DNA of 54,718 nucleotides, taken from the NCBI GenBank assembly GCA_023667765.1, contig JAMOZS010000013.1:1-54718 (forward strand), read 5' to 3'. This document shows positions 6,555 to 22,883 of this stretch, in pieces. The stretch is from Roseburia sp. (GTDB lineage: Bacteria; Bacillota; Clostridia; Lachnospirales; Lachnospiraceae). A model generated the notes under the pieces. The model was not told where the DNA came from. It was given only the letters and a program-made list of their open reading frames with translations, and did no database searches. How positions within the stretch are numbered: position 1 is the stretch's first letter; every line of letters starts with the position of its first letter. The position numbers and the translations under genes are program-made.

Positions 6555-7031
6555 TTATCGTTTATCCCCTCTGAAAAAAGCCAATATTCTATGGAGCGGC
6601 GTCCTGATTGGAAGGAGAACCAGCCAGAGTAGCGCCGCCGTCCTGTATATCGGATTCGTCGCTTTGATACAGCGCCCTTTTCTGATAAAGGCTGTCAGAA
6701 CCCCCTTTATCTGTTCCCTTTGCAGAGGCCCCTCCAACTCCGACTGATTATCCCCCACCAGATACAATCCTTCCGGGCGACAATGCGCCAGGCGGTGCAG
6801 CACCAGCATCCCGTTGTCCCGACGATACAGCACCACATCCCCCTTTTTTAATTTAGAACCATCCGCTTTCTTTAATATGGCCTTATCACGCCCCGGAAGC
6901 ATCATAGGATACATGCTGTTTCCCATGGGCTCTATCTGAATAGACGGATAAGCATCCAGCAACGCTTCGATTCGCTGTCCGGGCTTTCTGTCGGTTTGTC
7001 GTTCCTTATTTTCGGCAGGGTAATGTACCAT
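6555..7031 (-). CDS. S24/S26 signal peptidase-like protein, ER type
   Basis: 158 residues. The catalytic serine block EPMGNSMYPMMLPGRDK (Ser39), the block LVLHRLAH (His79) and LVGDN (Asp94) fit the Ser-His-Asp S26B (SipW/Sec11-like) peptidases rather than the Ser-Lys bacterial type I enzymes. The usual N-terminal anchor is absent. One hydrophobic helix lies near the C-terminus (about 131-150), so the active site may face either side of the membrane. It is transcribed divergently from the PqqD/HprK-like gene from a shared palindromic promoter, and it lies 3.3 kb from a leader-bearing protein and its exporter. That context suggests a dedicated leader peptidase (inference) rather than the general signal peptidase. 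The start at 7031 has GGAG 10 bases upstream. Confidence 0.85.
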   Translation of the reverse strand: MVHYPAENKERQTDRKPGQRIEALLDAYPSIQIEPMGNSMYPMMLPGRDKAILKKADGSKLKKGDVVLYRRDNGMLVLHRLAHCRPEGLYLVGDNQSELEGPLQREQIKGVLTAFIRKGRCIKATNPIYRTAALLWLVLLPIRTPLHRILAFFRGDKR

Positions 7032-7080
7032 CTGTATTTCGCTCCGTTTCTGCGCCGTTCTACTCCTACAGCCTGATTAC

Positions 7081-7150
7081 GTTACAATTCACGCCCTAAC
7101 CGATTCAGCAATTTTCAGTTTGATGTGCGTGAATAGTCGTGAATAGTAAC
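7081..7150. promoter_or_regulatory. Operator-like repeat cluster upstream of the exporter island
   Basis: GTTACAATTCACG (7081-7093) is mirrored by CGTGAATAGTAAC (7138-7150) with one mismatch. CGTGAATAGT also occurs twice head to tail at 7128-7137 and 7138-7147. Read on the minus strand this gives two ACTATTCACG copies spaced one helical turn apart, plus the inverted ACAATTCACG. The pattern suits a dimeric DNA-binding regulator and is reminiscent of LytTR-type boxes. No LytTR regulator is encoded in the window. Confidence 0.5.
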
Positions 7151-7169
7151 CTGATTTCACTTTTTAATA

Positions 7170-7202
7170 ATTATAGCATTCTGTCCCTGAAAATGCTATA
7201 AT
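7170..7202. promoter_or_regulatory. Symmetric divergent promoter for S26 peptidase and PqqD/HprK genes
   Basis: ATTATAGCATT (7170-7180) and AATGCTATAAT (7192-7202) are perfect 11-base inverted arms around 11 bases. Each arm supplies an extended -10 element (TGCTATAAT) for one direction: plus-strand TATAAT at 7197-7202, minus-strand TATAAT at 7170-7175. The -35 boxes are weak and lie within the opposite arm, so RNA polymerase could use only one direction at a time. Confidence 0.6.
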
Positions 7203-7286
7203 GAACGCCGTAAGACCAAAACCTGAAGGTAACGATTGACTGGCAACAAGGCGACCGTTAAAATAAAGGCGCGCAGGAGGTATTAT

Positions 7287-8441
7287 ATGATTCAAAATTC
7301 CTTATTTACAACAGCTCATTTATCCGATATCCCCTATATTCTTCCCTATGGACAGAATATTGCGGATCACCTGGGTGGCATTTCCACAAATGAGGCAGGA
7401 CTTCTTATATGGGACGCTCTGTGTTCCGGGAAAAACCGGGAGGAGATTCTGGCTCTTCTGACAGAAGCTTATGAGGCAGACGATAGGGACGCCGCCCTTC
7501 TGAAAGACGATTTGGACGCTTTTTTGAAGTCTCTGAAGGATAAACAGCTCACGGACAGCCGGCTCTGTGTCCCCTTTGCCCCCCATCAGGAGCATTTTAT
7601 CAAAATCGGCCCTCTCACTGTTTCTCTGCGAATCCCCGAGAAGCTATACCGGGATTACTTCGCCGACTTCTCCCGGGACGACTGTGAGAACCTAAAAGAG
7701 CCCGCACAGACAATTGTCTGCTATCACCACGCGCCCCTTCGCCATGAAAACGGCCAGGTTTTGGTGCGCAATGAAGAAATGCTGATTCTTGATACAAAAG
7801 AAACCTATATCCTTCTGCCCCGAAACAGCAAATACGTGTATGAAATCCATACCTCCAAGGACGGACGTACCGCCCGACTTTACTTTAAATATGACGCCGC
7901 AAAAGCGGACTGCCTCGGAGAAGTCTTTCAAGCCATACGGTTTGCCTTCCTGGTGGCGGCCGGGCAGAACGGCCTCTGTGTCATTCACTCCGCCTCTCTT
8001 CTGCACAGAGGAAAGGCCTGGCTGTTCTCCGGACATTCCGGCGCCGGAAAATCCACCCACACCAATTTATGGCATCAGCAATTCGGTACACCCCTGCTCA
8101 ACGGAGACCTGAATATGATTGGCCTGGAAGATGGCGCCCCCATCTGCTATGGGCTGCCCTGGTGCGGCACCTCCGGCATTTTCACAAATCATAATTACCC
8201 GCTGGGCGGCATCGTATTCCTGAAACAGGCCCCGGAAAACAGTGTGCAAAAGCTCTCCCCCGACCGGGAAATCCTCTATCTTTGTCAGCGGCTCATCACC
8301 CCCGGCTGGACAGAAGAACAGCTTACTCGAAATCTTGCCCTTTCCGCCTCACTTGCAGAAAAAATCGGCATCTACAGGCTCTGCTGTACCAAAGAACCGG
8401 CGGCTGCCATAATGATGCGGGAAGCTATCGAACAGGAATAA
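7287..8441 (+). CDS. PqqD-like / HPr kinase-like fusion protein
   Basis: 384 residues. Residues about 15-90 look like a PqqD-type peptide-recognition domain (ILPYGQNIADHLGGISTNEAG, then a two-helix tail). The C-terminal part is an HPr kinase/PEPCK-like domain with IHSASLLHRGKAW, the P-loop GHSGAGKSTH (249-258) and LLNGDLNMI. HprK-like kinases in lasso peptide clusters phosphorylate the peptide, and PqqD domains bind leader peptides. A kinase that phosphorylates a leader-bearing substrate is therefore a reasonable inference, and the nearby 144-residue protein is the obvious candidate. The ATG at 7287 is chosen for the AGGAGG 6 bases upstream. It is convergent with the ABC exporter, with only 13 bases between stops. 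Confidence 0.82.
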   Translation: MIQNSLFTTAHLSDIPYILPYGQNIADHLGGISTNEAGLLIWDALCSGKNREEILALLTEAYEADDRDAALLKDDLDAFLKSLKDKQLTDSRLCVPFAPHQEHFIKIGPLTVSLRIPEKLYRDYFADFSRDDCENLKEPAQTIVCYHHAPLRHENGQVLVRNEEMLILDTKETYILLPRNSKYVYEIHTSKDGRTARLYFKYDAAKADCLGEVFQAIRFAFLVAAGQNGLCVIHSASLLHRGKAWLFSGHSGAGKSTHTNLWHQQFGTPLLNGDLNMIGLEDGAPICYGLPWCGTSGIFTNHNYPLGGIVFLKQAPENSVQKLSPDREILYLCQRLITPGWTEEQLTRNLALSASLAEKIGIYRLCCTKEPAAAIMMREAIEQE

Positions 8442-8454
8442 GATAAATCCCCCG

Positions 8455-10221
8455 TCAAAAAGCATTCACGAGAGCGGCAATCTCCTCCTCATTCAGCACA
8501 ACGCATTGCTTATCCCGGATGGCATAAACCCGGTTGCATATATTTAACACCGTGGGTCTGTGGGTGGTCACGATACAGGTACGGGGATAAGCGTCCTGCA
8601 TGATATTTTTAAGCACTCTGCGCTCCGTAGCCACATCCAGCGCCGAGGTCGCCTCATCTAACAAAAGAATCGGAGCTTTTCTGAGGAGCGCTCTGGCGAT
8701 AGACAGCCTCTGCGCCTGTCCTTCCGAAAATCCTCCTCCCCGCTCCTTGATTTCACTGTTGATTCCATCGGGTAGTTTCTCCACAAACTCCCATGCACAG
8801 GCCAGCCTAAGAGCCTCTATTATCTCCTCGTCCGAAGCATCCTCCTTTATATTGCGCATATTTTCCGCAATGGTTCCCGAAAACATGGTATTACCCTGAG
8901 GCACATAGGAGAAGAGCGCTCTGGCGGCAGGCGTCAAAGCAAGCTGACGGCCGTCCTCTCCTCCGGTACAGAAAGCTCTTCCCCCCTGTACCGGCATCAG
9001 AGAGAGCAGCAGACGCAGCATAGTGGTTTTTCCCTCCCCGGAAGGGCCCACCAAAGCCACCACCTCATGAGGCTTCGCCTCCAAATCCGCTCCCCGAAAT
9101 ACCTGCGTGCCATTGTGATAGCTGTATTCCACCTGCTCCATCGTCAACCGGATTCCCTCCCGACGATATCTCTCCAGAAATTCAGCCACCTCTCCGGCAG
9201 CGCTGTAATCCTCTCTGGGCATCTCCACAATATCCATAAGACGCCCTGCGGAGGTGGCAAGACCAATAGCTGTGGGCACCAGCGAGGTAAGACTGTGCAG
9301 CGTTCCTGTCAAGGTACCCGACAGCCCTAAAAACATGGTCATCGTACCATAGTCAATGGCGCCGCTCCAGACCCTGTAAATTCCCCATCCATAAGAGGCA
9401 TAGGATACAAGCAATCCCACCGTGGACAAAAGCAACGAAGTCCACACAGACATTCTCTGGAAATCCAGCCGCATATGAATATATTCCTGCTGCAGCTGCC
9501 TCAGGCGTTTGATATACAAATCAATCAGTCCGAAAGCCTTTATAGTCTGGACATTAGAAAAGGCCTCCTGATTAAAACCGGACATCTTCGCTCCCATGGC
9601 GGCGCTGCGCTGATTATTATTGACCATACGTCTCATTAAAGTCCTTGACAGCAAAAGACTTACAGGCATACCAAGAAAAGCAAACAACGCAAAGGAGGCG
9701 TCATGATAGATTACTACCGCAAAAGCGCTGATAAAGCGAAAAGAATAGATAATCAGATTCGGGATAAAGTTCAACACGCCGCTTGAAATATTGGAGGCAT
9801 CCGAGCTCCAGCGGGTCAAAAGGTCCCCGGTATGATAATTGGTCAGAGCTTCCCAATCTGTCACCAGAATTTTTCGGAAAATATCCGATTTAATCTCCGC
9901 ATCCACCTTCATGCCAATCCAGCTGGAAGCGTAATTTGCCGCCTGATTCATCAAGGTGCTGCCCATGCCAAGGCCTATCATCATACAGAAGGTTTTCACT
10001 ACCTCCCCCGCCTGATTCCCGGTGATAATATTGACCAAATCCCTTGACACAAAACCCGCCGCCAATGAGACCACCGTACCCACAAGACCCAGCAGCGTAT
10101 AAAAAATCATAGCCAGCCAATAATGTCTGGCATATTCATAAATCCATTTTATCTGCCTTACCATTTCCTGCAGCCGTCCCGCTCTGATACGGGACATATA
10201 AAACAAAAACCGTTCCTTCAT
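8455..10221 (-). CDS. ABC exporter, fused permease-ATPase, no peptidase domain
   Basis: 588 residues, type IV (exporter) fold: six membrane helices in about residues 35-320, then an ATPase with Walker A GPSGEGKTT (392-400), signature FSEGQ (498-502), Walker B/D-loop LLLDEATSALD and the H-loop TTHRP. There is no N-terminal C39 peptidase, so any leader would have to be removed by another enzyme. The S26-type protein nearby would fit. Its start lies 153 bases downstream of the stop of the leader-bearing protein gene, on the same strand, with an intrinsic terminator between them. The usual LSGGQ is FSEGQ here, a mild variant. The substrate is inferred from context only. Confidence 0.88.
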   Translation of the reverse strand: MKERFLFYMSRIRAGRLQEMVRQIKWIYEYARHYWLAMIFYTLLGLVGTVVSLAAGFVSRDLVNIITGNQAGEVVKTFCMMIGLGMGSTLMNQAANYASSWIGMKVDAEIKSDIFRKILVTDWEALTNYHTGDLLTRWSSDASNISSGVLNFIPNLIIYSFRFISAFAVVIYHDASFALFAFLGMPVSLLLSRTLMRRMVNNNQRSAAMGAKMSGFNQEAFSNVQTIKAFGLIDLYIKRLRQLQQEYIHMRLDFQRMSVWTSLLLSTVGLLVSYASYGWGIYRVWSGAIDYGTMTMFLGLSGTLTGTLHSLTSLVPTAIGLATSAGRLMDIVEMPREDYSAAGEVAEFLERYRREGIRLTMEQVEYSYHNGTQVFRGADLEAKPHEVVALVGPSGEGKTTMLRLLLSLMPVQGGRAFCTGGEDGRQLALTPAARALFSYVPQGNTMFSGTIAENMRNIKEDASDEEIIEALRLACAWEFVEKLPDGINSEIKERGGGFSEGQAQRLSIARALLRKAPILLLDEATSALDVATERRVLKNIMQDAYPRTCIVTTHRPTVLNICNRVYAIRDKQCVVLNEEEIAALVNAF

Positions 10222-10283
10222 TTACCGTAATATCCTTTAGATTCGCTTTCTATTTCCCTGCCTGCAAAATTCACAAAACACTG

Positions 10284-10319
10284 AAAAAAGCCGGATATTC
10301 TTTCAGGGAATACCCGGCT
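10284..10319 (-). terminator. Intrinsic terminator between leader-bearing gene and exporter
   Basis: On the minus strand AGCCGGGTATTC pairs with GAATATCCGGCT (12 pairs, one G-U) around a 7-base loop and is followed by TTTTTT. It would end most transcripts of the upstream small gene and let a fraction read through into the ABC exporter, a common arrangement for peptide precursors. Confidence 0.88.
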
Positions 10320-10374
10320 CTGACTTTCCTTCATTCTGTTTCACCCGTCAGCCTCAGCAGCATCGTCGATTTTA

Positions 10375-10809
10375 TCAGTGACCCTCCTGACCGCAGGTCT
10401 GATTACAATAAGTGCTGTAAACATTTGTAATAGCTAATCCCGACTCTGATTTAACCGTCAACTGTCCCAGACCGATATTATCAAACTGAGCATTATTATG
10501 ATAAGAACCATTGATGCCATCCGTAAATGTCAGCGTCAGCGCAGCGGTGCCGTCTCCGCTGACACCTGCAGCATTACTACTCAGATATGTTACGTTCTGA
10601 TTAAATACAATCACAACCGTACGCGACGAACTGTGATGACCATCCTGCGCATTATGCGTCCCGTCTATCTGAATTGTATAATAATCCATACCTGTCGCAG
10701 GGGACTGCACTATGTTGGCTGTGAAGGTGTAACAGTCTCCGCTTGCCATATACACGCCTTCGGCAAGTTCATCATTTTCCAGAACCATAGGTTTGATATA
10801 ATTTTTCAT
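10375..10809 (-). CDS. Leader-bearing small beta-rich protein, possible exported substrate
   Basis: 144 residues, function unknown. The N-terminus MKNYIKPMVLENDELAEGVY followed by MASG looks like a short leader. It has no hydrophobic core, so it is not a Sec signal. Residue 25 onward changes to a Thr/Ser/Asn/Gly-rich beta-strand pattern (TVVIVFN, ALTLTFTDG, LGQLTVKS) with DGHHSSSR near 56-63. Cys26, Cys135 and Cys139 are the only cysteines, near both ends of the mature part. From memory, similar leaders with EGVYxASG occur on other Lachnospiraceae proteins; I could not check this. Its own strong promoter, a good ribosome site (GGAGGAG), a downstream terminator and the neighbouring exporter, HprK-like and S26 genes point to a secreted substrate. 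The start at 10809 is set by that ribosome site. Confidence 0.8.
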   Translation of the reverse strand: MKNYIKPMVLENDELAEGVYMASGDCYTFTANIVQSPATGMDYYTIQIDGTHNAQDGHHSSSRTVVIVFNQNVTYLSSNAAGVSGDGTAALTLTFTDGINGSYHNNAQFDNIGLGQLTVKSESGLAITNVYSTYCNQTCGQEGH

Positions 10810-10861
10810 ATTTGTCTCCTCCGTTGCAGAACTGAAACTATTTACCCTTTTACTTAAGCTT

Positions 10862-10890
10862 AGTATATACCCAATATTTCCAAATTGCAA
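10862..10890 (-). promoter_or_regulatory. Promoter of the leader-bearing protein gene
   Basis: On the minus strand TTGCAA (10885-10890), 17 bases, then TATACT (10862-10867). The leader is about 46 bases with a strong Shine-Dalgarno. It lies just after the pelG stop, so the small gene can be expressed apart from the polysaccharide operon. Confidence 0.72.
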
Positions 10891-10927: not shown

Positions 10928-12385
10928 TTATTTCTTATTTTTATTTCTTTCCGGCGTATATACTTTTCCCGTCGGCTTCCTGCCTTTTCCCCGTTTCAAA
11001 ATACTCCCCCGGCAGAATACATGAACATCCATATGCTTTTCCACCCAGCGCAGTCTGCTGTATGCTACCGACCATCCCATGCCGGCGCCTGCTATCACCC
11101 CAAGGCCATACCATATGGGCGTCAGCGCAGAGGCCGAAATACTCACCACAAAGGTGGTAATGCAAAAGCTGCCCGCAGTCAAAAGCGAACCTGTCAAATC
11201 ATTAAAATAATACAGAAAAATAATCGCCGAATACATGATAAACAAAATGAAATACCCCGCCGCAAGACTGGGATAAATTTGCATAACCAAATCGGAAAAT
11301 CCGAAGCGTGGCAGAAAAACAATACAGAGCAGGTAAATCACCACCGAGACGATAAACTGTATTCTTACCAGATTCATCAATTCCGTAGCAAGCTGCCGAA
11401 ACATCCGCCCCTTGGTGTTGGCAATATCAATCCCCCTTCCGCCGATAACCGCCTCAGAATAAGCCTTATATCTCTCGTGAAAGTTCATCTCCACCCGGCT
11501 GATAAACAGAATCGTGGCTGAAATATTGGTAAACATGGCGATACAGCTGGCCATATCATACGGCTGGGCACAGACAAAGCTGTCCGCCACCACCATTCTG
11601 ATATCCGTATTCCAGAACACAAAATTATGGATATACAGTCCCAGCGTATATAAGAAGTTCGTAAGCACCAGCTTCCAGTATTTTCTGAAGTAATACAGAA
11701 CTCTGCGATAACATCTGCTGTTCTCCCTGAAATACTGCTTTGTCGCCGCCAGCTCCAGACAGGCAATCAACAAAAAACCTACTACCAGAGAAAACAGCAT
11801 GGCATATGTAATCTCCCAGCCTGCCGCCCAGACCAGAAACAGAGAGAGCAAAAAGGACGTCAGCATTCCCAGCAGGAAGAAAAAAGAAATCTTCTTATAA
11901 TCCTTACAGATAGACAAATACAGCATGGAATAAAATACCAGCACCAGGCTGATATAACCGCAAAATCCGGTACACACATAGTACAGCTCCACCTGTCCCA
12001 CAAAATACTCCCAAATACAGAAGGGAATACCCAGCAGGCTGCTGAGAATCAGGTTCAATAACATCCCCACATAAAAGCAGGGAAGAATATCCTCGTATCT
12101 GTCCTCATAAATAACATCTGACATATATTTAGACAATACGGCATTAAAGGGAGCCGCCGTCAGCAGCGCAAAGATAAAAATGTACAGAACCGTACAGGCA
12201 AACAATTCTCTGACCGAAAAACCCACCGAGGAAAATCCCAGACAATAACCCGACAGAAAAATCTCCCCGATTACCAGAAACATAGGGGCTACCGTGACAG
12301 CCGCACTGTAACCGAAACCCAAAAGATTCGTTGTAACCGTATTTTTGCCATATATCTTATTCAGCGTAACACCTATTCCCGCCAT
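10928..12385 (-). CDS. pelG: PelG-like exopolysaccharide transporter
   Basis: 485 residues, polytopic with about 12 membrane helices, related to the Wzx/MATE-like PelG family. Characteristic stretches are MAGIGVTLNKIYGKNTVTTN at the start and the central NFLYTLGLYIHNFVFW, which resembles PelG. PelG partners with the cytosolic glycosyltransferase PelF to polymerise and move the GalNAc-rich Pel polymer across the membrane. It is the last gene of the seven-gene operon, starting 12 bases after the pelF stop, with GAGAGGT before the ATG. The C-terminus is a basic tail (KRGKGRKPTGKVYTPERNKN). Confidence 0.88.
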   Translation of the reverse strand: MAGIGVTLNKIYGKNTVTTNLLGFGYSAAVTVAPMFLVIGEIFLSGYCLGFSSVGFSVRELFACTVLYIFIFALLTAAPFNAVLSKYMSDVIYEDRYEDILPCFYVGMLLNLILSSLLGIPFCIWEYFVGQVELYYVCTGFCGYISLVLVFYSMLYLSICKDYKKISFFFLLGMLTSFLLSLFLVWAAGWEITYAMLFSLVVGFLLIACLELAATKQYFRENSRCYRRVLYYFRKYWKLVLTNFLYTLGLYIHNFVFWNTDIRMVVADSFVCAQPYDMASCIAMFTNISATILFISRVEMNFHERYKAYSEAVIGGRGIDIANTKGRMFRQLATELMNLVRIQFIVSVVIYLLCIVFLPRFGFSDLVMQIYPSLAAGYFILFIMYSAIIFLYYFNDLTGSLLTAGSFCITTFVVSISASALTPIWYGLGVIAGAGMGWSVAYSRLRWVEKHMDVHVFCRGSILKRGKGRKPTGKVYTPERNKNKK

Positions 12386-12397
12386 AGCCTACACCTC

Positions 12398-13879
12398 TCA
12401 AATGTCATAATCATCCGTGTCACTGACCTCTATGTCGAATTTGGCCAGCCCTCGCTCATCTTCCAGCTTCTCAAAGAAATCGGAATAAATCTTCTCATAG
12501 GTCTGCAGCATATCCTTCAGCTGATATTTATACATCATTCTCTGATATCCCGCCTCTCCCATACGCCTGCGGGCGGCAGCATTATTTCCCATAAACACAA
12601 GCGCCTGGGAAATCTCCTGCAGATTCATAATATGAGTGAGTATCCCCGCCGCCCCGAACTGGTCGTCCTCGCCGTAAATCAACCCGCTGCAGTTGCCCAC
12701 ATCCGTGGCAATCACAGGCTTATGAGCGGCAAAGCTCTCCAGAATCGTCAACGGCTGACCCTCGCTGATACTGGTCAGAATCGTGGCGTCCATTCTTCCC
12801 AGATAATCCTGCACCTTGATTCGCCCGGTAAAAACCACATCCTTGATTTTCATGGTCTCCACCATGTCAAAGCATTCCTGGGCATACTCCCTGTCCTCCT
12901 CCCAGGACCCCATAATCCAAAGCTTCAGGCTTTCGCATTTCTCCTTAGCAAAAGCAAATGCCTGCAGCATGCTTTTCACATCCTTGATAGGAGCCACACG
13001 CAGGATAGCGCCTATATTTACCATGCCCTCATCCTCTTTTGTCTTTCCCGGCAGATTCTGAAAACGCACGGGATTCACACCATTGGGGGTCACCATAATT
13101 TTAGCCGGAGGGCAGCCCAGCTCCATCTGCAGCTCTCTGGCATGCTCATAGAGGCTGGTCACCAAATCCGCGCTCTTGTATGCCAGACCGGACAGCTTTT
13201 TAAACTGGTCTATCCAGACATTCTTATAGATACCGCTGACCCACTGAGCCTTAATCAGCTCCTCCTCCCTCTCTCTGGTATAGATGCCATGCTCGGATAT
13301 CAAAAGCTTGGCGCCGAAGAAATACTTTGCCATACTGCCCAGAACCCCCGCATACCCGGTGGCCACACAATGATACAAATCCGCCTTCGGAATATCCATT
13401 TTCAGCACAAACATCAGGGGCAGATAAATAGAGCGCATGGTCCACAAAAAATCCGAGAATACAATCTGAGGATATTTTAAATTATAACAATCCCTCACGG
13501 CGAGATAGAAGTCCTCCCCCATCAGCACCTGGTCTATGGAAAGGTTTTTCTTCCTGAATAAGTCAAACAGGGTATACCAGTCCACATCCTGATTCAGTAT
13601 CAGACTTCGCAGCGCCTGATACTGCTTGTTCTTAAGACGCTTGCCATGATATCCTTCCCTTCCCCAGTACCAGTCCTGGTCGTTTAAATATACCTCATGT
13701 ACACCCACCACATTTTTCGGCAGCTCATATACATATTTTCCCCGAAGAGACCTGTCGGCCACAATTGCCAGAATTTCAAATTCATAATCCGGAAAAGACT
13801 GAATCATACTGTGAATCCAGCTGGATACACCGCCGACCACATAAGGATAACATCCTTCCGCCACAACACAAATTTTCAT
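12398..13879 (-). CDS. pelF: PelF-like GT4 glycosyltransferase
   Basis: 493 residues, GT-B fold. The N-terminal MKICVVAEGCYPYVVGGVSS and LLISEHGIYTREREEEL are typical of PelF. The C-terminal domain holds the nucleotide-sugar site ISEGQPLTILESFAA (E-x7-E). PelF uses UDP-sugars to build the Pel chain in the cytoplasm with PelG as membrane partner. The start at 13879 is preceded by AAGGAGGAGA. The stop is 12 bases from pelG and the start is 45 bases from the DUF2194 gene, so all belong to one transcript. Confidence 0.92.
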   Translation of the reverse strand: MKICVVAEGCYPYVVGGVSSWIHSMIQSFPDYEFEILAIVADRSLRGKYVYELPKNVVGVHEVYLNDQDWYWGREGYHGKRLKNKQYQALRSLILNQDVDWYTLFDLFRKKNLSIDQVLMGEDFYLAVRDCYNLKYPQIVFSDFLWTMRSIYLPLMFVLKMDIPKADLYHCVATGYAGVLGSMAKYFFGAKLLISEHGIYTREREEELIKAQWVSGIYKNVWIDQFKKLSGLAYKSADLVTSLYEHARELQMELGCPPAKIMVTPNGVNPVRFQNLPGKTKEDEGMVNIGAILRVAPIKDVKSMLQAFAFAKEKCESLKLWIMGSWEEDREYAQECFDMVETMKIKDVVFTGRIKVQDYLGRMDATILTSISEGQPLTILESFAAHKPVIATDVGNCSGLIYGEDDQFGAAGILTHIMNLQEISQALVFMGNNAAARRRMGEAGYQRMMYKYQLKDMLQTYEKIYSDFFEKLEDERGLAKFDIEVSDTDDYDI

Positions 13880-13924
13880 TCTCGTCTCCTCCTTTCCCTT
13901 TCCGATATTCTCCGCTCCGGCTCA

Positions 13925-15787
13925 TTATCCGCCGTAATAGTAAAGTTCCAGCTCCGGCTTCAGTTCCAGTATCAGCTGGGAACGCAGAGCCCTTATCAGC
14001 CACACATGTTCCTCCAGTTCCACGAACTCGCCCCCCTGCAGCGAAGTCAACACCTTATGATTCGTGCGAAGCAAAAACCATGCCTCCTTCTCCCAGTTCT
14101 CTATCTCCAGCGAAATTCGATTCTCCTGGCAGGTATCCTGATAATCCAGGGCCAGAAAACGCCGCACTCGCTCGTCACTCTCCGTCAGCGTGGTAGCGTC
14201 AAATGTCTGAAAGGGCTTCCAATACGTGTTGATATTACTGGAAAAATCATCATACAATACCTCCCAGTGAACTTCCTCCTCCCCCGGCCAGAAAACCCTC
14301 TCCAGATTCAGAACGATACTGGAATACCCTAAAGCTGTCTCCAGACTCTTTAAGCACAAATCCTGTGAAAAGGTATGGCTGTAACCATCCAGCACCCCTC
14401 CCTGCAATGTGATATTCTCGTTCACATAGGACAGCACAGGCTCTGTCTGCCCATAATCACAAATCACAGTACAAAGTCCGTCATAAGAATCGTACTGGGA
14501 CAGCAGCTCTGTTATCTGCTTTACCTGCCTGGCGTCCGCCGCATCCTCTCTGCTCAGATACAGACTGGAATAAGAGCGCGTCAGTCCCGTATCCTTCAAA
14601 AAGGCGTCCATCCAGGCCGCCGCCTCCATAAGAGAGGTCCCATCCGCCCGGGGGAAAGAAACGCCCATCTCCCCATATCCCTCATTTACCTGCTTCAGGT
14701 AATAGATTAGCGTATCCTTTGAGGGCAGATTCTCGTCGGAAAAATCCATCTGTCCCGCCATCATAGCCGATATTCTGTAATCCGAATGCTCCGCAACAGA
14801 AACAAGACCGGGGCCCACAATATCACGCACCACCGCCAGCTGGTCTCTGGTATAGATTTTCTGCATATTTTCCCGGTTTTCCGACGCCAGCACCGGATAC
14901 CCTGCCGTCACAAAATTCTGCGCGTTCACCACGGGATAAATAAGATAGGAATTCAATTCCTTCATCATAGCCGAGAGAAAACCCAGTCCTGTCAGCCCGG
15001 ACATATAGTCTCCGTTCACCACAAAGATTTTGGCGTCCTTATAGGCCGCCCTCCAAATAAGCATCGGGAGCTCTTCGTTTTCAATCTCCTCATCCTGCAT
15101 CAGCCCCGTCATATACACCTTCGTACCCGACGCCCCGACACACCATGGCACCAAAAGCTCCAAATCCTGCCTGTATTCATCCTTGGGCGTCTCTACCTCG
15201 TAAATACTCTCTCCGCCCAACAGGAAACCCTCGTATAAATGTACTCCCGTCAGCTCGGCCTCCTCCCGAAGCTCTCTGATTCCCAGAAGCTTACGAAGGG
15301 AAACGCTCTTTTCAAGCAATGCTGTCTCCGGCAGGTCACAAAATATCATAGGCACTCCCGCATCAGCCAAGGCCAAAAGTTCCGAAACCCCCGAAGCCTG
15401 AGTGAGCGCTGCCGAGTCCACAAGCATCACCTCCGGGCGTCGTTCCCCTGCCTGCTCCGGGGAGGGAATGCCGGCCGTTGTCAAAAGATTTCGCTTCGTA
15501 TATTGGCACCACTGAGTTACAATCGAATGCAGGGGGCCCTCCTCCTGCCCCGTCACAAACAGAACGTAATCCCCTTCCTCAAAATCAAGAGGCGTCCTGC
15601 CATCCTGCCCTTTCCAGCTCTGAGCCTGTGTATACTGGGTGGTTCTGTCCTCCCAATCGGGATTGGTGTCATAATTGTTCAACCGCTCCTTTCCCACTCC
15701 CACAAAAAGGAACAGAAACACAATAACACCCATCATAGTCATAATTGTAAAATAATTCCGTATGGATACCATATTTGTCCGTGTCAT
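13925..15787 (-). CDS. DUF2194-type membrane-anchored protein of the Pel operon
   Basis: 620 residues: short cytoplasmic N-terminus, one membrane helix (about 13-30), then a large extracellular part. I place it in DUF2194 by overall style and its position before pelF; confidence in that family is moderate. It has a Rossmann-like first half (EVMLVDSAAL, MIFCDLP) and an LDGYSHTFSQD segment that faintly recalls polysaccharide deacetylase active sites, but no clear metal-binding HxxxH. Gram-positive Pel operons normally carry a deacetylase (PelA-DA) in this place, and none is recognisable here, so this protein may do that job or may be an unrelated assembly factor. Confidence 0.68.
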   Translation of the reverse strand: MTRTNMVSIRNYFTIMTMMGVIVFLFLFVGVGKERLNNYDTNPDWEDRTTQYTQAQSWKGQDGRTPLDFEEGDYVLFVTGQEEGPLHSIVTQWCQYTKRNLLTTAGIPSPEQAGERRPEVMLVDSAALTQASGVSELLALADAGVPMIFCDLPETALLEKSVSLRKLLGIRELREEAELTGVHLYEGFLLGGESIYEVETPKDEYRQDLELLVPWCVGASGTKVYMTGLMQDEEIENEELPMLIWRAAYKDAKIFVVNGDYMSGLTGLGFLSAMMKELNSYLIYPVVNAQNFVTAGYPVLASENRENMQKIYTRDQLAVVRDIVGPGLVSVAEHSDYRISAMMAGQMDFSDENLPSKDTLIYYLKQVNEGYGEMGVSFPRADGTSLMEAAAWMDAFLKDTGLTRSYSSLYLSREDAADARQVKQITELLSQYDSYDGLCTVICDYGQTEPVLSYVNENITLQGGVLDGYSHTFSQDLCLKSLETALGYSSIVLNLERVFWPGEEEVHWEVLYDDFSSNINTYWKPFQTFDATTLTESDERVRRFLALDYQDTCQENRISLEIENWEKEAWFLLRTNHKVLTSLQGGEFVELEEHVWLIRALRSQLILELKPELELYYYGG

Positions 15788-15817
15788 TCCTTCATTTGCT
15801 CCTCATGCCATTTCCGA

Positions 15818-17260
15818 CTATCTGATAATCGTAACCGTACCAATCCTATAGCCATATTTTTCCCTTTCCTGTTCGTTCGCCAGCTGCATCGGTGTTTCTG
15901 TCTCGGCGTCCTCTATCTGAAAGTACACGCTGTAGACGCCCTCGGGCAGACTGCTTAAGGAAAATTCAGTCCCGCAATCCGCCGTTTTGCCGGACTGCTC
16001 CCCGCCTGTCAGCAGACGCAGCTCATAATCCAGCGTTTTCCTTACCACAAGCTCTCCCTCTCCTCCACAGAGCGTTATGATTAAGAGCTTATCCGTATAT
16101 ACCGGGGCAAAACCTACATTCTGCAGGCGAACCGCCGCCAAAAGAGCGTCCTCCTTTCTATCATAGGATAATTCCGCCTCCCGTATCAGAATACGATATC
16201 CCAGATGCCTCTCTATATAACTGAGGCCATCCATCCCCTCATAGCATCCGGGGCTCCCCAGGATAGTTTTTTTCCATTTTTCATATATTTTGGCGTCATA
16301 TTCCTTATTCAGATAAGTGACATGCATCCTTGCCAAATCCCTCAGGGCATTCTCAAAATCATTGTACGGGTTCTCCATCATGATTTCTCCCCCATTGGGC
16401 ACCCATTTACACAACTCATCCTGAAACGCCAGCTCATCCTCACGACACCAGGGCTCATAATAGATAGCCTCCTCTGCGCTCTTTGTGCCGTAAGTTCCAT
16501 AATCGCCTTCATTACCCATAATTCCGTCATTGTAGAGGCTAAGCCTCCTGGTCAGCGTTCCCTCCGCCGCCTCTCCTAAATCCGGATTTCGCAGCTCGGT
16601 GATTGTCCTCCACTGGCTGGGCATTCTCACCGCCAGATAATCCGAAGGGTCGCTGGCCTTTGCCAAAGCATCGGAAAGGCGCTTAAAATCCTCAATGGCC
16701 AAATATTTGGTGCCATTCATCTCTCCCCAGTTTCCGATAAACAAACCCTGTATGACAAAGACCTCCTGCTTATGCTTCTGCAATACCTCTCCCGCCTGAC
16801 GAATATGCTCCAGAATAATTTCAATGCTTTGAGGCTCTCTCTGCTCGTTTTCTCCGTCCCAATCATACAGAAAGCGAATCAGATAATGCTTGCCCGTCTC
16901 CTCTAAGGCGGTAAATAATTCCTCCAGATGAACCAGTCCCCTTTCGGAAATAGCTCCCTGACTGTAATTCTGCAGATTAATCTGCACCATGGCAAGGGTC
17001 GTTTCCCTGTCGCCTGCGAATCTCTGACGCACCTGGGTTGTAAGATCCGTATCCTCATCCGTTATATAAAAACCATAGATATAGTAAAAGCCCCTGTCGT
17101 CATTATCCAGATATGCCGACGTCTCCGAAAACTCCGACGTACTTACCGTCACCTGCCAGTGACGGCTCTGAAGATAAAACTTACCTGCCAGGCCAAGCAG
17201 AAGAAACACTCCCGTCATAAGCAGAAAATAAACGATACAGGCGCCTGTTTTTTTTGCCAT
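15818..17260 (-). CDS. DUF4832-family membrane-anchored protein
   Basis: 480 residues with one N-terminal membrane helix (about 9-28), then an extracellular TIM-barrel-like domain and a C-terminal beta domain. The family motif GLFIGNWGEMNGTKYL (Glu180 inside it) plus DRGFYYIY, LYNDG and NGGE match DUF4832/DUF4874 proteins, which resemble glycoside hydrolases; the WGE glutamate would be a candidate acid. A paralogue lies at 26946. AAGGGGAAA precedes the ATG. In the Pel operon it may trim or bind the polymer outside the cell. No activity has been shown from sequence. Confidence 0.75.
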   Translation of the reverse strand: MAKKTGACIVYFLLMTGVFLLLGLAGKFYLQSRHWQVTVSTSEFSETSAYLDNDDRGFYYIYGFYITDEDTDLTTQVRQRFAGDRETTLAMVQINLQNYSQGAISERGLVHLEELFTALEETGKHYLIRFLYDWDGENEQREPQSIEIILEHIRQAGEVLQKHKQEVFVIQGLFIGNWGEMNGTKYLAIEDFKRLSDALAKASDPSDYLAVRMPSQWRTITELRNPDLGEAAEGTLTRRLSLYNDGIMGNEGDYGTYGTKSAEEAIYYEPWCREDELAFQDELCKWVPNGGEIMMENPYNDFENALRDLARMHVTYLNKEYDAKIYEKWKKTILGSPGCYEGMDGLSYIERHLGYRILIREAELSYDRKEDALLAAVRLQNVGFAPVYTDKLLIITLCGGEGELVVRKTLDYELRLLTGGEQSGKTADCGTEFSLSSLPEGVYSVYFQIEDAETETPMQLANEQEREKYGYRIGTVTIIR

Positions 17261-17271
17261 CCGATTTCCCC

Positions 17272-19692
17272 TTATCTGTCAATTACCAAATCAAATAGAT
17301 TCCGGGGATTCTGATGAATATAGTAACACACAAAATCCTCGTCCTCATAAAATACTTCCATCTCCTGGGGATAAGCTCTCTCAAAAGCCTCGCACCATTC
17401 ATATACTTTAGAAGACAACACCGTTCGGTTATCCAAATTGGAATATACCTCCTGCAATTTCGCATAAGCTATATTCCCCCGGGCCTGCTCTCTCGATATT
17501 TCAGATGTTGTAATATCAGGACACTGGCTCACAAAGGAGCTGTAAAAAGCAGGATATTTCTCCAGCGCCAGCCACTTGGGCCCGGCAAAGAAATGGCTCT
17601 GGGCATACTCCAACGGCTTTTTTTCCAGATAGATAAATATATGCTCCGTAGGAAGTCTGTATGGCTCCTCCTTACCCGCATTTAGCACAAAGGTATAAAG
17701 CTCCTCATGCCGCCCCCTCTGAATCACCTGATACAATTCATCCGTGGGACTGACAATCGTATAGCTGTTTTTCGGGAACGTATCCATAATGGAATCCGTG
17801 ATTCTCACCGCCGCATTATAGCGGGTCAGCTCATAATATAAATAGCCGTGATAGCTTCCGCTTATCACCACGCCGAAAATTACGCCAAAACACCCGGCTA
17901 CAGCCAGAAGCTCAGGCAGCAGCCTGACGCCTCGCTTTTCCGGCAGGCACAGCGCCAAATCCACCGGCGCCAGAACCGCCGCCAAAGCCAGAAAATGAAT
18001 CGTGGTACAGAGTCTCGCTCCGGCTACCACCTCCGGCAATCCTGCCGTGGGCGCGCCATACAGAAACATAAAAAGGGTGGCCGCCAGCGTCAGAGAGATA
18101 TATCCGTCCAGGAACCCCTTCGTCTCTCTGGAAGCGGAGCGTCCAAAAAAGCGAAACCCTATTCGGTAAAGCAGCCAGAGCACCGCCATAAATCCGGACG
18201 CCAGCAATATCACCAACGCCCTTTCCGGTGTATAAAGGGTGGCATAACCGCCGTAATAAATATCCCACATCATATCCCAGAGCGCCGCTCCAATCTTCTG
18301 CGCCGTATCCGAAAGCCTCTCCGTAAAGCTTCTCTCCGGCGCCGGCTGTCCGGATGAAATTCCCTCCGGCGTCTGAACCTGCTGCGGCTGCAGGGAAGCG
18401 GTATCCTCCGGCTGTGAAGGTACGGCCTCCGGCAGAGAATCGGCTTCGCCGGGCACAGGGTCCGCAAAAGGATCCGTTCCGCTGATAACTCCCAGCGCCC
18501 AGTCGATAGAGCCCTGAAAATCCTTTCCTTCCAAAAGCGCCCCGCACATGGGCACCATGGCAATCAATAGTCCCAGAATAACCGCCAGCACAAGGGGTAC
18601 AAAATGTTTCTTGTTGAAAATCCGCGGCAGCAGAAATATCGCTACGGAAGCGCAGACAAAGAAAGCCATAATCGTCGTATAAAAATGAATGGATAAGGAG
18701 GCCGCCAGAGCCAGCGTAAATAACAGCAGATAATCCTCCATGACATATTTCTGCTCCATAAACGCCGCTTTTTTGATAAGCTTTCCGATTTTAAAATTAT
18801 GCTCCGACGTATCCGTCTTTAAATATTTCACAAGATAAACGGCGCATACATACTGGGTAAACAGGCCAAACTCCTGGGGCAGCGTCCACTGCAGCCTGGA
18901 CATACTGAACACCTGATTGATACAGGTTAAATCCAGAATCAGGAAAGCAATGATAATCAGAAACGGCGTGTATTTCCCATGAAGCAGCTCCCTTAAAAAG
19001 GCATACATTGCCACAATCAACGCTATGATATGAATCCCTGCCAGAAACATTTGTATGCTGTACACCTCTATGCCGAACAGGGTATGCAGCATATAAATAA
19101 AGCAATGCATAGCCTCCGGGTATACGCCGTCACTGAAAATATCCCCCTGAATCAGGCCGTAAATCCAGCTGTGATGCGTATACATATCTCCGAAGCCATA
19201 AGAATAATCCTGAAATGCGCCATAGGTAAAATATATCATGGCATATACCACAACTCCCAAAAGCAGCGCATGCTCCAGAAGCCTGGGTCTGGTATTGCGC
19301 CAGACCTCCACCGCCTTCCGCTTAAACCAGCGTCCCAGCCGCCCAAATAAGCGCAGCCCAAACAGCTTGACGCCGCATTCCCCGGTGACCAGTCTGGAGA
19401 AATTCGTCTTTGTCTCCGCATCTATCAGATGCATTCTGTATATGGCATAAAGAAAGATTCCAAGGAATACCGCTCTGACGGTCCATGCATTCAGAAGATG
19501 CAGCAGACCCAGTCCCAGCACAATGAGATTGACTACCAGAATCTGAGACACCGTACAAAAAAGGAAGCTAAAAAGCCTGCCCTTTCCCTTCAAATATCCC
19601 CTAAATACCACAGAGGGCCAAAGATACATGACCAGCAAATACGCAGTCAGCACCTTTCCGTATTCTATCGCCCAATATAAGCCTACCGGCAT
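17272..19692 (-). CDS. Large polytopic membrane protein, GT-C-like architecture
   Basis: 806 residues, about 13 or more membrane helices. I do not recognise the family with certainty. After two or three N-terminal helices comes a loop with YGFGDMYTHHSW (about 163-173), an acidic/His loop where GT-C glycosyltransferases keep catalytic residues. A Pro/Glu/Gln-rich stretch (about 405-455) sits between membrane blocks. The C-terminal 200 residues are mostly soluble (FPKNSYTIVSPTDELYQVI). The ATG at 19692 is preferred over the GTG at 19701 because GGGAGG lies 8 bases before the ATG. It is in the middle of the Pel-like operon and is not part of the canonical pelDEAFG set. A lipid-linked sugar transferase or polymer modifier is possible. 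Confidence 0.7.
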   Translation of the reverse strand: MPVGLYWAIEYGKVLTAYLLVMYLWPSVVFRGYLKGKGRLFSFLFCTVSQILVVNLIVLGLGLLHLLNAWTVRAVFLGIFLYAIYRMHLIDAETKTNFSRLVTGECGVKLFGLRLFGRLGRWFKRKAVEVWRNTRPRLLEHALLLGVVVYAMIYFTYGAFQDYSYGFGDMYTHHSWIYGLIQGDIFSDGVYPEAMHCFIYMLHTLFGIEVYSIQMFLAGIHIIALIVAMYAFLRELLHGKYTPFLIIIAFLILDLTCINQVFSMSRLQWTLPQEFGLFTQYVCAVYLVKYLKTDTSEHNFKIGKLIKKAAFMEQKYVMEDYLLLFTLALAASLSIHFYTTIMAFFVCASVAIFLLPRIFNKKHFVPLVLAVILGLLIAMVPMCGALLEGKDFQGSIDWALGVISGTDPFADPVPGEADSLPEAVPSQPEDTASLQPQQVQTPEGISSGQPAPERSFTERLSDTAQKIGAALWDMMWDIYYGGYATLYTPERALVILLASGFMAVLWLLYRIGFRFFGRSASRETKGFLDGYISLTLAATLFMFLYGAPTAGLPEVVAGARLCTTIHFLALAAVLAPVDLALCLPEKRGVRLLPELLAVAGCFGVIFGVVISGSYHGYLYYELTRYNAAVRITDSIMDTFPKNSYTIVSPTDELYQVIQRGRHEELYTFVLNAGKEEPYRLPTEHIFIYLEKKPLEYAQSHFFAGPKWLALEKYPAFYSSFVSQCPDITTSEISREQARGNIAYAKLQEVYSNLDNRTVLSSKVYEWCEAFERAYPQEMEVFYEDEDFVCYYIHQNPRNLFDLVIDR

Positions 19693-19737
19693 CTGTCTCA
19701 CCTCCCTTTCTTCTCTTTTCCTCTCATCAGCCCTTCC

Positions 19738-20670
19738 TTAGGGCTGGAAAATCCGAATCAACTCCAGCGTCTCCTTGTCAATTACCACATCCGACTGCTT
19801 CGTCTGCTGCAGCGCCTCAAAAAACCGCTCTCTGTCACCTGCGGTAAAATAGAGCTTTAGTCTACAGGTGTGACTGGAAAGCTCCATGGGATAATTCTCC
19901 ATGGCCCTGTCGCACCATTCGCCGCAGCGCTCATACTCTCTGCTGTCCAACAGCCGCATACAGATTGCCTCGTAATAATCCGCCCTCATAAGAGAAGGCT
20001 GCAGCTCATACAAAAGCTGGCATGCCTCGTCCATCTTCCACACATAATCCGTCTGTTCCATCCGGGTCAGAACATTTTGCATCAGGATAGGATTCATACT
20101 CTCTATCAGCGCCGAAGCATATGCACAGCGCTCCTCCGTATCATTCTGTCCCTCCTCATCTTTCATCTCCACATACAGCTTCTGGACATTGATACGGAAG
20201 CTGTTCAGCTCGTCTACCAGAACTGAGGCCGCATAATGAGAGGTCTCCGAATCCTCGCTGCCAAGCGCCATGGAGATAGCCCTGAGAGACGTGGTAATAT
20301 CCCCCTTGATGACATTTAACATCAACCGGCGCAGACTGGACTTATCACTGACCGCAAGAGCCTCCTCTATAGGAGCTATATTCATCTCCCTCTCCTCATC
20401 CGCCTTCACAATGGATTCCTTTTTGTCCTTATTAAAGATGACGTCTGCCAGGTCCACAGGCTCTTTTAATACAAATCGGAACAAAAGCTGACCCAGGATA
20501 AAAAAGAGGGGAGCCACCACCGGGCAAAGCAGCATTGCCACGGCATTCATCACATACTGCATCCGCCCTTCTTTCTTACGGCCCCACACCATGCCATAGA
20601 CAAAGTACAGAAGAGTTATCACAAAATTGATAAATAAGACCAGGAAAAAAATGCTCTCTTGCCTTGTCAT
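19738..20670 (-). CDS. pelE: PelE-like membrane/TPR protein
   Basis: 310 residues: two N-terminal membrane helices (about 6-27 and 41-68), then a helical repeat region (LADVIFNKDKKESIV onward) with the look of TPR repeats (YEAICMRLLDSREYERCGEW). This is the layout of PelE in Gram-positive pel operons, which joins PelD and PelG in the synthase complex. The start ATG overlaps the PelD-fusion stop by 4 bases (ATGA), so the two are translationally coupled. Sequence conservation in PelE is low, so the call rests on architecture and position. Confidence 0.78.
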   Translation of the reverse strand: MTRQESIFFLVLFINFVITLLYFVYGMVWGRKKEGRMQYVMNAVAMLLCPVVAPLFFILGQLLFRFVLKEPVDLADVIFNKDKKESIVKADEEREMNIAPIEEALAVSDKSSLRRLMLNVIKGDITTSLRAISMALGSEDSETSHYAASVLVDELNSFRINVQKLYVEMKDEEGQNDTEERCAYASALIESMNPILMQNVLTRMEQTDYVWKMDEACQLLYELQPSLMRADYYEAICMRLLDSREYERCGEWCDRAMENYPMELSSHTCRLKLYFTAGDRERFFEALQQTKQSDVVIDKETLELIRIFQP

Positions 20671-22841
20671 GCCTCCAGCGCCTCCCTGATTTCCCCTTCA
20701 AAGCCCTGCTCTCTGAAACGCTTCAAAACAATGACGGCGTCCGTTGCGTTGGTATTGGACAACAAGACATACAAAAGCTTATCTTCCATCTCCCCGAGAT
20801 AATCGGACTGCCTGAGCATTTTACTCAGTCTTACGCTGTTCTCCCTCGTAGGCGCCGCATTCAGGCAAATCAGGCTGCACTCGGTCAGTCCCTTTTCCTT
20901 CGCCTCCAGATGCGCTCTGGTCAAGCTGACAAAAGCCTCCTCCTCCAGAATGGATGTATCATCCACGTAGCGCTCCTCACGCAGCGCGTCCATATATCTG
21001 TCCGCACGCACCAGAGCGTCGCGCACCAACAGGCTGATAACGGAAAGCATATTCGCCTGGCTCATGGTCATACGGTCCCAGGAAAGTCCCCATACCATGA
21101 TAATCAGCCGCAAAGACTCCTCCTCATAGATGGCGTTGGCCATCAAAGGATACCCCTTCTGCAGACCCTTATTGATATAAACTCTCTTCTCGTACAGTAC
21201 TTCCGTAAGTCCCTCCAGTTCCTGATATTTCAGAGAATTCCCCATCTGCCTTGCGGTATCGGAGGTGGCGGAACACAATCTGGCGTAGGTATCATCCTTT
21301 ACGGAATAAATAGCGATATCCCTACTGTGCAGCAGCCTGGACAACACATCCGCCGCATAGAATAATACCTCGTCAGGAGCGTATCTCCCCAGCGAAGAGG
21401 TGATATCATAAATTTTTCCGATACTGTCATTCTGATTGGCCAGCTGCGAAATCAACACATCCTTCATCCGAACATTCGTGGAATTGATATCCTGAATATC
21501 TCCCACCTGGTCCTCCAGATATTCTATCTCCTGCTCATTTTCCGCCTTAATCACCCGAAGCTGGTCTCTCATGTAGCCTACCACCAGCCCCAGAATAAAC
21601 AGCTGGGCAATCCAGACATAGGTATTGTAATCCAGAAGCACATCAAAGCCGGAGCGGGAATACATCTGCCTGAATATATAGCCCGCCATGGCCAAAAGCG
21701 CCGAGAAGGTGGCCTGATGCTGTCCATATACAATGGCAAACAACAACACGTACAATAAATAAAAGTCCAAATTCTGAAAATATCTGCTGTCAGTCGCCCT
21801 GTTATTCAGCATAAAAAAGGGGACAAAACAAATCATATTCTCCAGAAACGGAACCAGTTTCTCAAAGGTAATACGGAAATGGCGGACAAACCGCACAAGG
21901 AAATTCACATCTTCGTCACTGGGATTCAGATAAACTCTTCTATGGTTACGCATATAGCCCACAATGCGCTCCACGATTTTCTCAGGGGTATAGACTACCC
22001 GCTGCCCGAATTCCTCCCGAAAGGCCTCGCTCGACAAAACCACTCTGTAGCTGCTGCCCACTGTATTATCCGTAATCGTCAGTAAATAGCCCAGCCGGCT
22101 GCTCACCAGTTTCGCCAGCTGCAGCTCTGTGACCACATTACCCGAGGAGAGATTGTAGAGCATTCTCTGATGAGACTCGCATGTCATGAGCCGGTAGATG
22201 TATTCCACCGCATCCGAAACAAACAGAGGCGCAAAGGAAATATTGGCATTTGCGGCAATATCTCCGGTTCGAAAACCCTCCATACACAATCTGCCGCAGG
22301 GCGTCTCCGCTTCCCACTTTTTTCTCGGAATACCGCAGAAATGGTCCAGCCTGGCCACCACCACATCCAGCCCCATCTGCTCGCTGTAATTAAAGCACAG
22401 CTGCTCCGCCTGCGCCAGTATCATAGAGCGGAAGCCCTTCGGACAGGTGGGCTCATCCTCCTCTATATCATTGGGATAGGAATTGCAATAGACCTCTTCA
22501 CTGGACAGATAAACAAAACGGCCCTTTTTGTGAAGCGCATAAGCCATCAACATATTCAGAATACTGTTGGAATAATGAATGGACTCCCTGCGCGGGTCCG
22601 ACCAGTTAAAAACAGAATCATAAGCGCCCAAACTCAGAATGACGTCCGGGTTCACGCTGTCAAACACATCATTTAAGCTATCGCTGTCATAAGTGAAGCG
22701 ATAATATTCAAAGACCTTTCTGTCCTTTGCTTCCCTGTACTTACTGCCCGTCAGCACATATATGCGATGGCCTTCCTTGTGAAGCTTATCAATCATCGCC
22801 TTCATCAAATTGCCATCGCCGCCCACCAGCAAAATATCCAT
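20667..22841 (-). CDS. pelD: SDR-PelD fusion, predicted c-di-GMP receptor
   Basis: 724 residues. Residues 1 to about 300 form an extended SDR/epimerase-like Rossmann domain (LLVGGDGNLMKAM). Its YxxxK site reads GFRSMI, so Tyr and Lys appear lost. Membrane helices occupy about 335-425, followed by a coiled coil (EQEIEYLEDQVGDIQDI), a GAF-like domain (about 485-590) and a C-terminal GGDEF relic. In the relic RQSD (677-680) keeps the RxxD c-di-GMP inhibitory-site motif, while GGDEF has become GEMEDK, so cyclase activity is unlikely. PelD binds c-di-GMP this way to switch on Pel synthesis. The ATG at 22841 (AGGGAG 4-5 bases upstream) is preferred to the GTG at 22856. It is the first gene of the operon. 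Confidence 0.85.
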   Translation of the reverse strand: MDILLVGGDGNLMKAMIDKLHKEGHRIYVLTGSKYREAKDRKVFEYYRFTYDSDSLNDVFDSVNPDVILSLGAYDSVFNWSDPRRESIHYSNSILNMLMAYALHKKGRFVYLSSEEVYCNSYPNDIEEDEPTCPKGFRSMILAQAEQLCFNYSEQMGLDVVVARLDHFCGIPRKKWEAETPCGRLCMEGFRTGDIAANANISFAPLFVSDAVEYIYRLMTCESHQRMLYNLSSGNVVTELQLAKLVSSRLGYLLTITDNTVGSSYRVVLSSEAFREEFGQRVVYTPEKIVERIVGYMRNHRRVYLNPSDEDVNFLVRFVRHFRITFEKLVPFLENMICFVPFFMLNNRATDSRYFQNLDFYLLYVLLFAIVYGQHQATFSALLAMAGYIFRQMYSRSGFDVLLDYNTYVWIAQLFILGLVVGYMRDQLRVIKAENEQEIEYLEDQVGDIQDINSTNVRMKDVLISQLANQNDSIGKIYDITSSLGRYAPDEVLFYAADVLSRLLHSRDIAIYSVKDDTYARLCSATSDTARQMGNSLKYQELEGLTEVLYEKRVYINKGLQKGYPLMANAIYEEESLRLIIMVWGLSWDRMTMSQANMLSVISLLVRDALVRADRYMDALREERYVDDTSILEEEAFVSLTRAHLEAKEKGLTECSLICLNAAPTRENSVRLSKMLRQSDYLGEMEDKLLYVLLSNTNATDAVIVLKRFREQGFEGEIREALEA

Positions 22842-22883
22842 AATGCTCCCTTTCACCTTTGTTCTTCAACCATATGCAACAAA

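Follow-up and report, generated by a model that had tools for sequence, protein, structure and literature searches.

The 54,718-nucleotide stretch of Roseburia sp. DNA analysed here (GenBank assembly GCA_023667765.1, contig JAMOZS010000013.1; hereafter, the window) contains between positions 6555 and 10890 four genes, which code for a leader-bearing cargo protein, an ATP-binding cassette (ABC) exporter, a fusion of a PqqD domain with an HprK-like kinase, and an S26-type peptidase. We consider, with a probability of roughly 0.78, that these genes represent a maturation and export system for ribosomally synthesized and post-translationally modified peptides (RiPPs) that resembles the system for Linear Polyphosphorylated Peptides (LPP) and is turned to protein-sized cargo. 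LPP is a RiPP family reported in May 2026 from the lpp cluster of Paenibacillus alginolyticus (PMC13381572, cited throughout for the part of its text that was available), and its enzymes are a SipW-like peptidase, a PqqD-type RiPP recognition element (RRE), an HprK kinase, a nucleotidyltransferase (NTP transferase) and an MsbA-like exporter, with no cyclase. An initial annotation of the window had called the system possibly undescribed, a claim that the published LPP enzyme set does not support.

Leader-guided phosphorylation, cleavage and export of the cargo appear well supported in outline. Gene content, conservation, co-occurrence, motifs and the contigs of the fusion free of matches to lasso cyclase or B2 are observed directly, and the biochemical steps are proposed by analogy with the P. 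alginolyticus LPP system and with pseudomycoidin. Namely, the PqqD domain would bind the YxxPxV leader at the N-terminus of the cargo, and the fused HprK-like kinase would add at least one phosphate to a Ser near the leader junction, Ser23 being the likeliest. Next, the S26 peptidase, which is SipW-like and would be aided by the PqqD domain, would remove the leader near EGVY/xA/SG (slashes marking the candidate cuts), and the ABC exporter would carry the cargo outside, where it would act as a matrix or surface protein alongside the exopolysaccharide of the neighbouring genes (Pel in the window). Also, a nucleotidyltransferase of the NTP_transf_5 family may attach a sugar to the phosphate, by analogy with pseudomycoidin, where the nucleotidyltransferase PsmN is needed for the hexose on the phosphorylated Ser (PMC9266682, a review available in part).

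Gene content of the module

The four genes named in the initial annotation proved to be real. The cargo protein of 144 residues is encoded at 10375..10809 on the minus strand, with its stop at 10375 and its ATG at 10809, which is preceded by a GGAGGAG stretch resembling a ribosome site; the gene end first given, 10890, is an upstream TTG. The 24 conserved residues of the leader and junction region (10738..10809, minus strand) include Y4xxP7xV9 of the RRE-binding type, EGVY and Ser23-Gly24. At a spacing of 154 bases from the cargo stop lies the gene for the ABC exporter (588 residues, 8455..10221, minus strand), with ABC_membrane and ABC_tran over the cut-off. The PqqD (RRE)-HprK-like kinase fusion has 384 residues (7287..8441, plus strand), and its PqqD domain (residues 31-88, 7377..7550, plus strand) matches Pfam PF05402 with an E-value of 1.1e-8, over the cut-off. 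Finally, the archaeal/ER-type (SipW-like) S26 signal peptidase of 158 residues (6555..7031, minus strand) is the probable leader peptidase. A single operon is ruled out by the opposite strand of the fusion; the initial description of the four genes as a coherent set, guided by a leader, is supported.

Co-occurrence of the leader with its putative partners

Among 250 genomes of the family, the fusion (P0004) matched 59 at E <= 1e-10; 14 of these matches were full-length-type fusions (E < 1e-50), and many of the others covered the kinase part only. The 24-residue leader profile (A1) matched 17 of the 250 genomes, 15 of them at E <= 1e-5, and both the leader and a full-length fusion were found in 13 (Fisher p 8.4e-19). 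The association is far beyond chance and is not blind, because the profile came from leaders beside fusions. In 398 genomes of the phylum, the leader profile matched the window's own genome, plus one weak partial match. The cargo domain of the window, searched without its leader, was found in 7 of the 250 family genomes, all of which carry leader and fusion, and the concern that cargo homologues might mostly stand without these partners is thus allayed.

The surroundings of the fusion were then compared in 54 loci including the window (loci and genomes are given by our own handles, L and G). A fusion of the counted type is present in 37 of them, and 29 of the 37 have 5 kb on both sides. Left out of the 37 were L045 and L046 (split), L047 and L048 (partners not found around matches of 22-24%), L049-L051 (of the radical SAM type), L108 (fusion truncated at the edge of its contig) and L110-L118 (taken around leaders, no fusion inside). 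In the 29 fully flanked loci, the ABC exporter was detected in 28, the leader in 28 and the S26 peptidase in 24, L043 being the one without leader and ABC. In L043 the fusion (8460-9734) stands beside pel genes, and leader, ABC and S26 were not found in 18.5 kb; the same genome has all three elsewhere (L117). At L117 (5334-8724, G135), which is separated from the fusion by about 37 kb of the same contig, there is a second S26 gene together with an ABC gene and a pair of leader proteins.

The picture was similar in named genomes, from which a scan retained the best 80 of its 167 confirmed loci; these 80 overlap in part with the other locus set (e.g., L119 and L086), so that the two sets are not independent. 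With 5 kb on both sides in 53 of the 80, the leader was detected in 47, the ABC exporter in 50 and the S26 peptidase in 41. Hosts of the 80 loci are labelled mostly as Lachnospiraceae or its genera, and a few just as "bacterium", Bacillota, Eubacteriales or Clostridiaceae, and once as Gastranaerophilales; named carriers include Blautia luti, Coprococcus catus and Roseburia porci. Leader, fusion, exporter and S26 peptidase thus co-occur strongly, in line with a check that the initial annotation had put forward for the leader, the fusion and the peptidase.

One leader in front of many cargo bodies

The 136 open reading frames collected with the leader reduce to 116 different proteins, between 58 and 209 residues long (median 137), with the common N-terminus YxxPxV...EGVYxASG. 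A pattern that presupposes the Pro, the Ser and an acidic-type residue fitted 111 of the 116, and at position 4 of these, Tyr stands in 110 and Phe in one; the five misses are L041, L097, L107, L118 and the L173 fragment. The bodies behind the leader fall into 15 single-linkage clusters that BLAST does not link, the largest with 78 and 17 proteins; two of the 15 are doubtful singletons (the L173 fragment and L118, with a weak leader), separate clusters need not differ in fold, and the largest brings together classes with only partial resemblance. In some cargo proteins, Pro-rich linkers follow the leader. Because one leader precedes many cargo clusters, with Pro-rich linkers in some, leader and cargo are separable; to judge from these sequences, the leader looks like a portable tag set apart from the cargo fold, not a part of a folded domain, as had been feared at the outset. 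Furthermore, leaders distant from the fusion within the same genome (G022, G029, G034 and G135) suggest that the system works in trans; the leader and the fusion of G240 sit on separate short contigs, possibly of one locus. Searched against solved structures, the leader gave nothing better than E 2, and one leader matched Pfam DUF5972 at E 0.035. In G146 (68% complete), three leader proteins are found on three contigs (L110, L111 and L112) with no fusion found; two of them have a common body, for which one of the two gave a match to Pfam ubiquitin (E 0.0015, below the cut-off).

By comparison with LppA (PMC13381572), the cut is predicted after Tyr20 or Ala22: EGVYxASG aligned with FETxxS by its Ser places it after Tyr20, and aligned by an aromatic residue at -3 and a small residue at -1 (Px9Fx[T/A]) places it after Ala22. 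The leader is thus probably of 20-22 residues and not of the 24 first assigned to it, and under either placement the phosphate would most likely be on Ser23.

Homologues of the window cargo occur in 13 other loci with 42-56% identity. In the NCBIfam collection no model matched the window cargo protein, and in a search against solved structures its best match (E 0.13) was taken as chance. Its class is related to the DCWTV class (93.8%), which gave chance-level NCBIfam matches only. In one cargo cluster, CBM_2 was above the Pfam cut-off in three of five members; in other systems CBM_2 domains bind sugars. A relationship of the window cargo domain to CBM2 was considered and ruled out (hhalign, 0.2%, with 8% against another class). 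A Cys-rich class with the same leader (CDSxYMxGVW...GCLGCPA...CGL) comprises 17 distinct proteins (L033 11733-12107 and related loci), and the one member tested had no Pfam match.

As in ordinary RiPPs, the cargo might alternatively be the precursor of one short peptide product, with the remainder of the body as a carrier. LPP precursors, indeed, have 35-200 residues and variable C-termini, and the one studied yields a 45-residue core (PMC13381572). The bodies found here, however, show conservation along their length: leader excluded, a 14-row cargo alignment has 16 invariant columns and a 10-row alignment has 19. Some of the bodies are recognisable CBM_2 domains, and a second conserved cleavage site was not seen in them, all of which makes a short product very improbable. 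That the cargo is folded, and beta-rich as the initial annotation had it, is judged from conservation.

The fused kinase, the peptidase and the exporter

The RRE-kinase fusion is found in the window and in 28 aligned relatives. A profile of its PqqD domain (A3) matched TbiB1 at E 1.2e-4 and LppB (9x8z) at E 0.035. In the crystal structure of LppB, N33, D70 and F74 hold the Pro and Tyr of the leader (PMC13381572); their equivalents, placed from the sequence alignment of the A3 profile with LppB, are N in 26, D in 25 and F in 25 of the 29 fusions, with all three in the window. In the two loci with split versions, histidine-kinase-like proteins (L045 6383-7189 and L046 6111-7028) have N-termini of the RRE-binding type YQKPxL/V, and their genes lie near the split PqqD, HprK, ABC and S26 genes; leader mimicry that ties a sensor to the RRE is possible.

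If the HprK-like domain were inactive on the cargo, the fusion would be an adaptor only, and the module would perform leader-directed cleavage and export in a double-glycine-like manner with a separate peptidase. This would be in line with the weak matches of HprK models, with folded cargo that could act without modification, and with L129 and L142, two of the 53 fully flanked loci, where the fusion was seen with no other part found. Nonetheless, in all 29 of 29 fusion rows the P-loop keeps G, G and K of GxGK, and NGD is invariant as well; furthermore, the kinase of LPP is an active enzyme, and cleavage is hindered when it is deleted (PMC13381572). We thus regard an adaptor without kinase function as decidedly unlikely.

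For the peptidase, the best NCBIfam match was a signal peptidase of archaeal type (TIGR02228, E 2.5e-8), below the cut-off, as was Pfam Peptidase_S24. Ser39, His79 and Asp94 of the peptidase are kept in every one of the 21 aligned rows, including three taken from loci of the radical-SAM type. In a domain search, no C39 peptidase domain was found in the window ABC exporter, as first annotated, and the leader junction is ASG; the pathway of C39-containing exporters is ruled out by the lack of both a C39 domain and a double-Gly leader. AAA_21, just over the cut-off in the exporter, reflects ATPase overlap. Exporter copies in fusion loci are 52-76% identical, and leader and ABC genes are 19-330 bp apart in 32 of the 33 loci with both (1067 bp in L106).

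Search for cyclase, B2 and radical SAM enzymes

A lasso cyclase (Asn_synthase, PF00733) was matched in 36 and B2 (Transglut_core3) in 8 of 38 genomes, but no match fell on a contig with the fusion, as judged by eye from the positions. In G308 and G096, a cyclase and a B2 do occur as a pair, away from the fusion contigs. For the fusion contigs, several of which are short, a lasso peptide cluster is thereby rejected, and the absence of a lasso cyclase stated in the initial annotation stands. For radical SAM enzymes the sole search made was BLAST with three queries, which gave no match in the fusion loci. Separately, L049, L050 and L051 combine HprK, ABC and S26 genes with a radical SAM-like gene (and NTP_transf_5 in two), and to judge from their gene content these loci would be a radical-SAM version of the module.

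Polysaccharide genes around the module

Directly upstream of the cargo gene and on the same minus strand lies a clostridial-type pel operon (10928..22856). It comprises PelG (Pfam, E 2.8e-144), PelF, DUF2194, DUF4874-DUF4832, an epimerase with a weak GGDEF match (PelD-type) and two proteins without a Pfam match; PelA, PelD and PelE were assigned from gene order and domains relative to PMC7112168 (available in part), PelA and PelE being names by position only. Beyond it are a Wzx-type polysaccharide flippase (23060..24616, minus strand; Polysacc_synt, E 2.6e-14) and, about 15 kb from the cargo gene, the NTP_transf_5 nucleotidyltransferase (25698..26942, minus strand; PF14907, E 3.1e-41), which is LppN-like by family. 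Between the cargo and ABC genes, a hairpin with a U-run (10287..10321, minus strand) is a probable terminator, with a minimum free energy of -21.4 and a z-score of -3.2; 3 of 200 shuffles were as good, and a simple scan did not list it. A promoter-like site 5' of the cargo gene (10862..10890, minus strand) has only a 9/12 consensus match.

Neighbours in the 29 fully flanked loci were a flippase in 18, NTP_transf_5 in 16, DUF4832-type genes in 12 and PelG in 5; in the 53 named-genome loci they were a flippase in 32, NTP_transf_5 in 27 and PelG in 2. These polysaccharide genes, together with the CBM_2 cargo of one cluster, speak against the view that the leader proteins are bacteriocins or toxins of a conflict system and not matrix proteins, a view for which one could cite the high diversity of the cargo bodies, their patchy distribution, the Cys-rich class of 17 proteins and a history of LPP genes that its discoverers, in their discussion, call typical of genes in biological conflicts (PMC13381572). 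We consider it unlikely. As for a further step beyond export, the module might be a general secretion route, directed by the tag, for whole folded proteins. The kinase would mark the new N-terminal region with phosphate, to which the nucleotidyltransferase and the glycosyltransferases encoded nearby would attach sugar or exopolysaccharide, and the biofilm polysaccharide would thereby become covalently linked to matrix proteins of diverse fold; this idea is a long shot.

Weight of the evidence and implications

Several observations weigh against an LPP-like system for protein-sized cargo. HprK-related models match the fusion weakly (E 2e-4), and the leader ends EGVYxASG, whereas the LPP motif YxxPxVLxHQxIxFETxxS ends FETxxS (PMC13381572). 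The leader-fusion association is partly built into the leader profile, and the pairing is broken in G146 by three leaders without a fusion (in a genome that is 68% complete), in G213 by a leader with a divergent 24% fusion and in G096 by a fusion with a weak leader. Among the 53 named-genome loci, 6 have no detected leader, 12 no S26 and 3 no ABC, and NTP_transf_5 was undetected in 26. Several fusion contigs are short (4-10 kb), and a cyclase beyond their ends could escape. Also, the window cargo domain has no similarity to the CBM2 cargo, and pel genes proper are nearby in a minority of the loci.

An LPP-like system with protein-sized cargo is nevertheless the reading that we prefer. RiPP machinery is usually seen as tailoring small peptides, and here what appears to be the same set for recognition, phosphorylation and cleavage goes with many bodies; its carriers are gut bacteria, in which the module is often beside polysaccharide genes. 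If the proposed steps hold, whole matrix proteins would be exported by a route other than Sec, and the module would offer a testable answer to the purpose of LPP systems, which their discoverers left open.

Comparison with known systems

In the LPP system, the roles of kinase, RRE and SipW-like peptidase were shown by deletion and in vitro cleavage: Ser phosphorylation depends on HprK, and cleavage by the SipW-like peptidase depends on the RRE; LppS cleaves after FET, LppK phosphorylates Ser3 of the core, and deletion of LppN made no change in the LPP test (PMC13381572). Like LPP, the window has a SipW/archaeal-type S26 peptidase near an RRE, an HprK-like kinase, an NTP transferase and an MsbA-like exporter, and the fusion contigs of the 38 genomes, some of them short, have no PF00733 cyclase match. 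The leader contains YxxPxV, the motif bound by LPP RREs, and the setting is one of polysaccharide genes, with one to three precursors of common N-terminus and variable bodies. LPP loci are capsular polysaccharide loci, for which biofilm was named as a speculation on function (PMC13381572). In contrast to the discrete RRE of LPP, the one here precedes the kinase in a single fused protein. The bodies of the cargo are conserved domains of protein size, CBM2 among them, and the hosts are by label mostly Lachnospiraceae, whereas the LPP work was on a Paenibacillus; the available text of PMC13381572 makes no mention of Lachnospiraceae or Clostridia. Plain LPP membership is not claimed because the discrete RRE and half of the leader motif fail. 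A literature search covering few subscription journals found no publication on a PqqD-HprK fusion with protein-sized cargo.

Paeninodin-like lasso peptides (paeninodin and pseudomycoidin) are similar in their PqqD-type B1 and HprK-like kinase, with a nucleotidyltransferase in pseudomycoidin; their clusters also include an ABC exporter, and lasso RREs bind YxxPxV-type motifs as well. They differ in that the leader here is YxxP and not WxxP, the cargo has about 120 residues, and neither cyclase nor B2 is on the fusion contigs. In the SipW-TasA pathway of Bacillus subtilis, likewise in a matrix setting, a secreted protein is processed by a signal peptidase of archaeal/ER type; unlike there, the N-terminus here is, by eye, an RRE-type leader and not a hydrophobic Sec signal, and export would be by the ABC transporter.

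The clostridial pel operon (pelDEADAFG, PMC7112168) has PelF, PelG, DUF2194 and the epimerase-GGDEF gene as in the window, where they lie upstream of the module, and DUF4832 is an accessory gene in streptococcal and clostridial pel loci; the available text of that paper, in contrast, names no RRE, HprK, leader protein or "ABC transporter". As far as the sequences tell, what is new with respect to LPP is the fused RRE-kinase, the distinct ending of the leader, the conserved protein-sized cargo in many classes and the pel neighbourhood.

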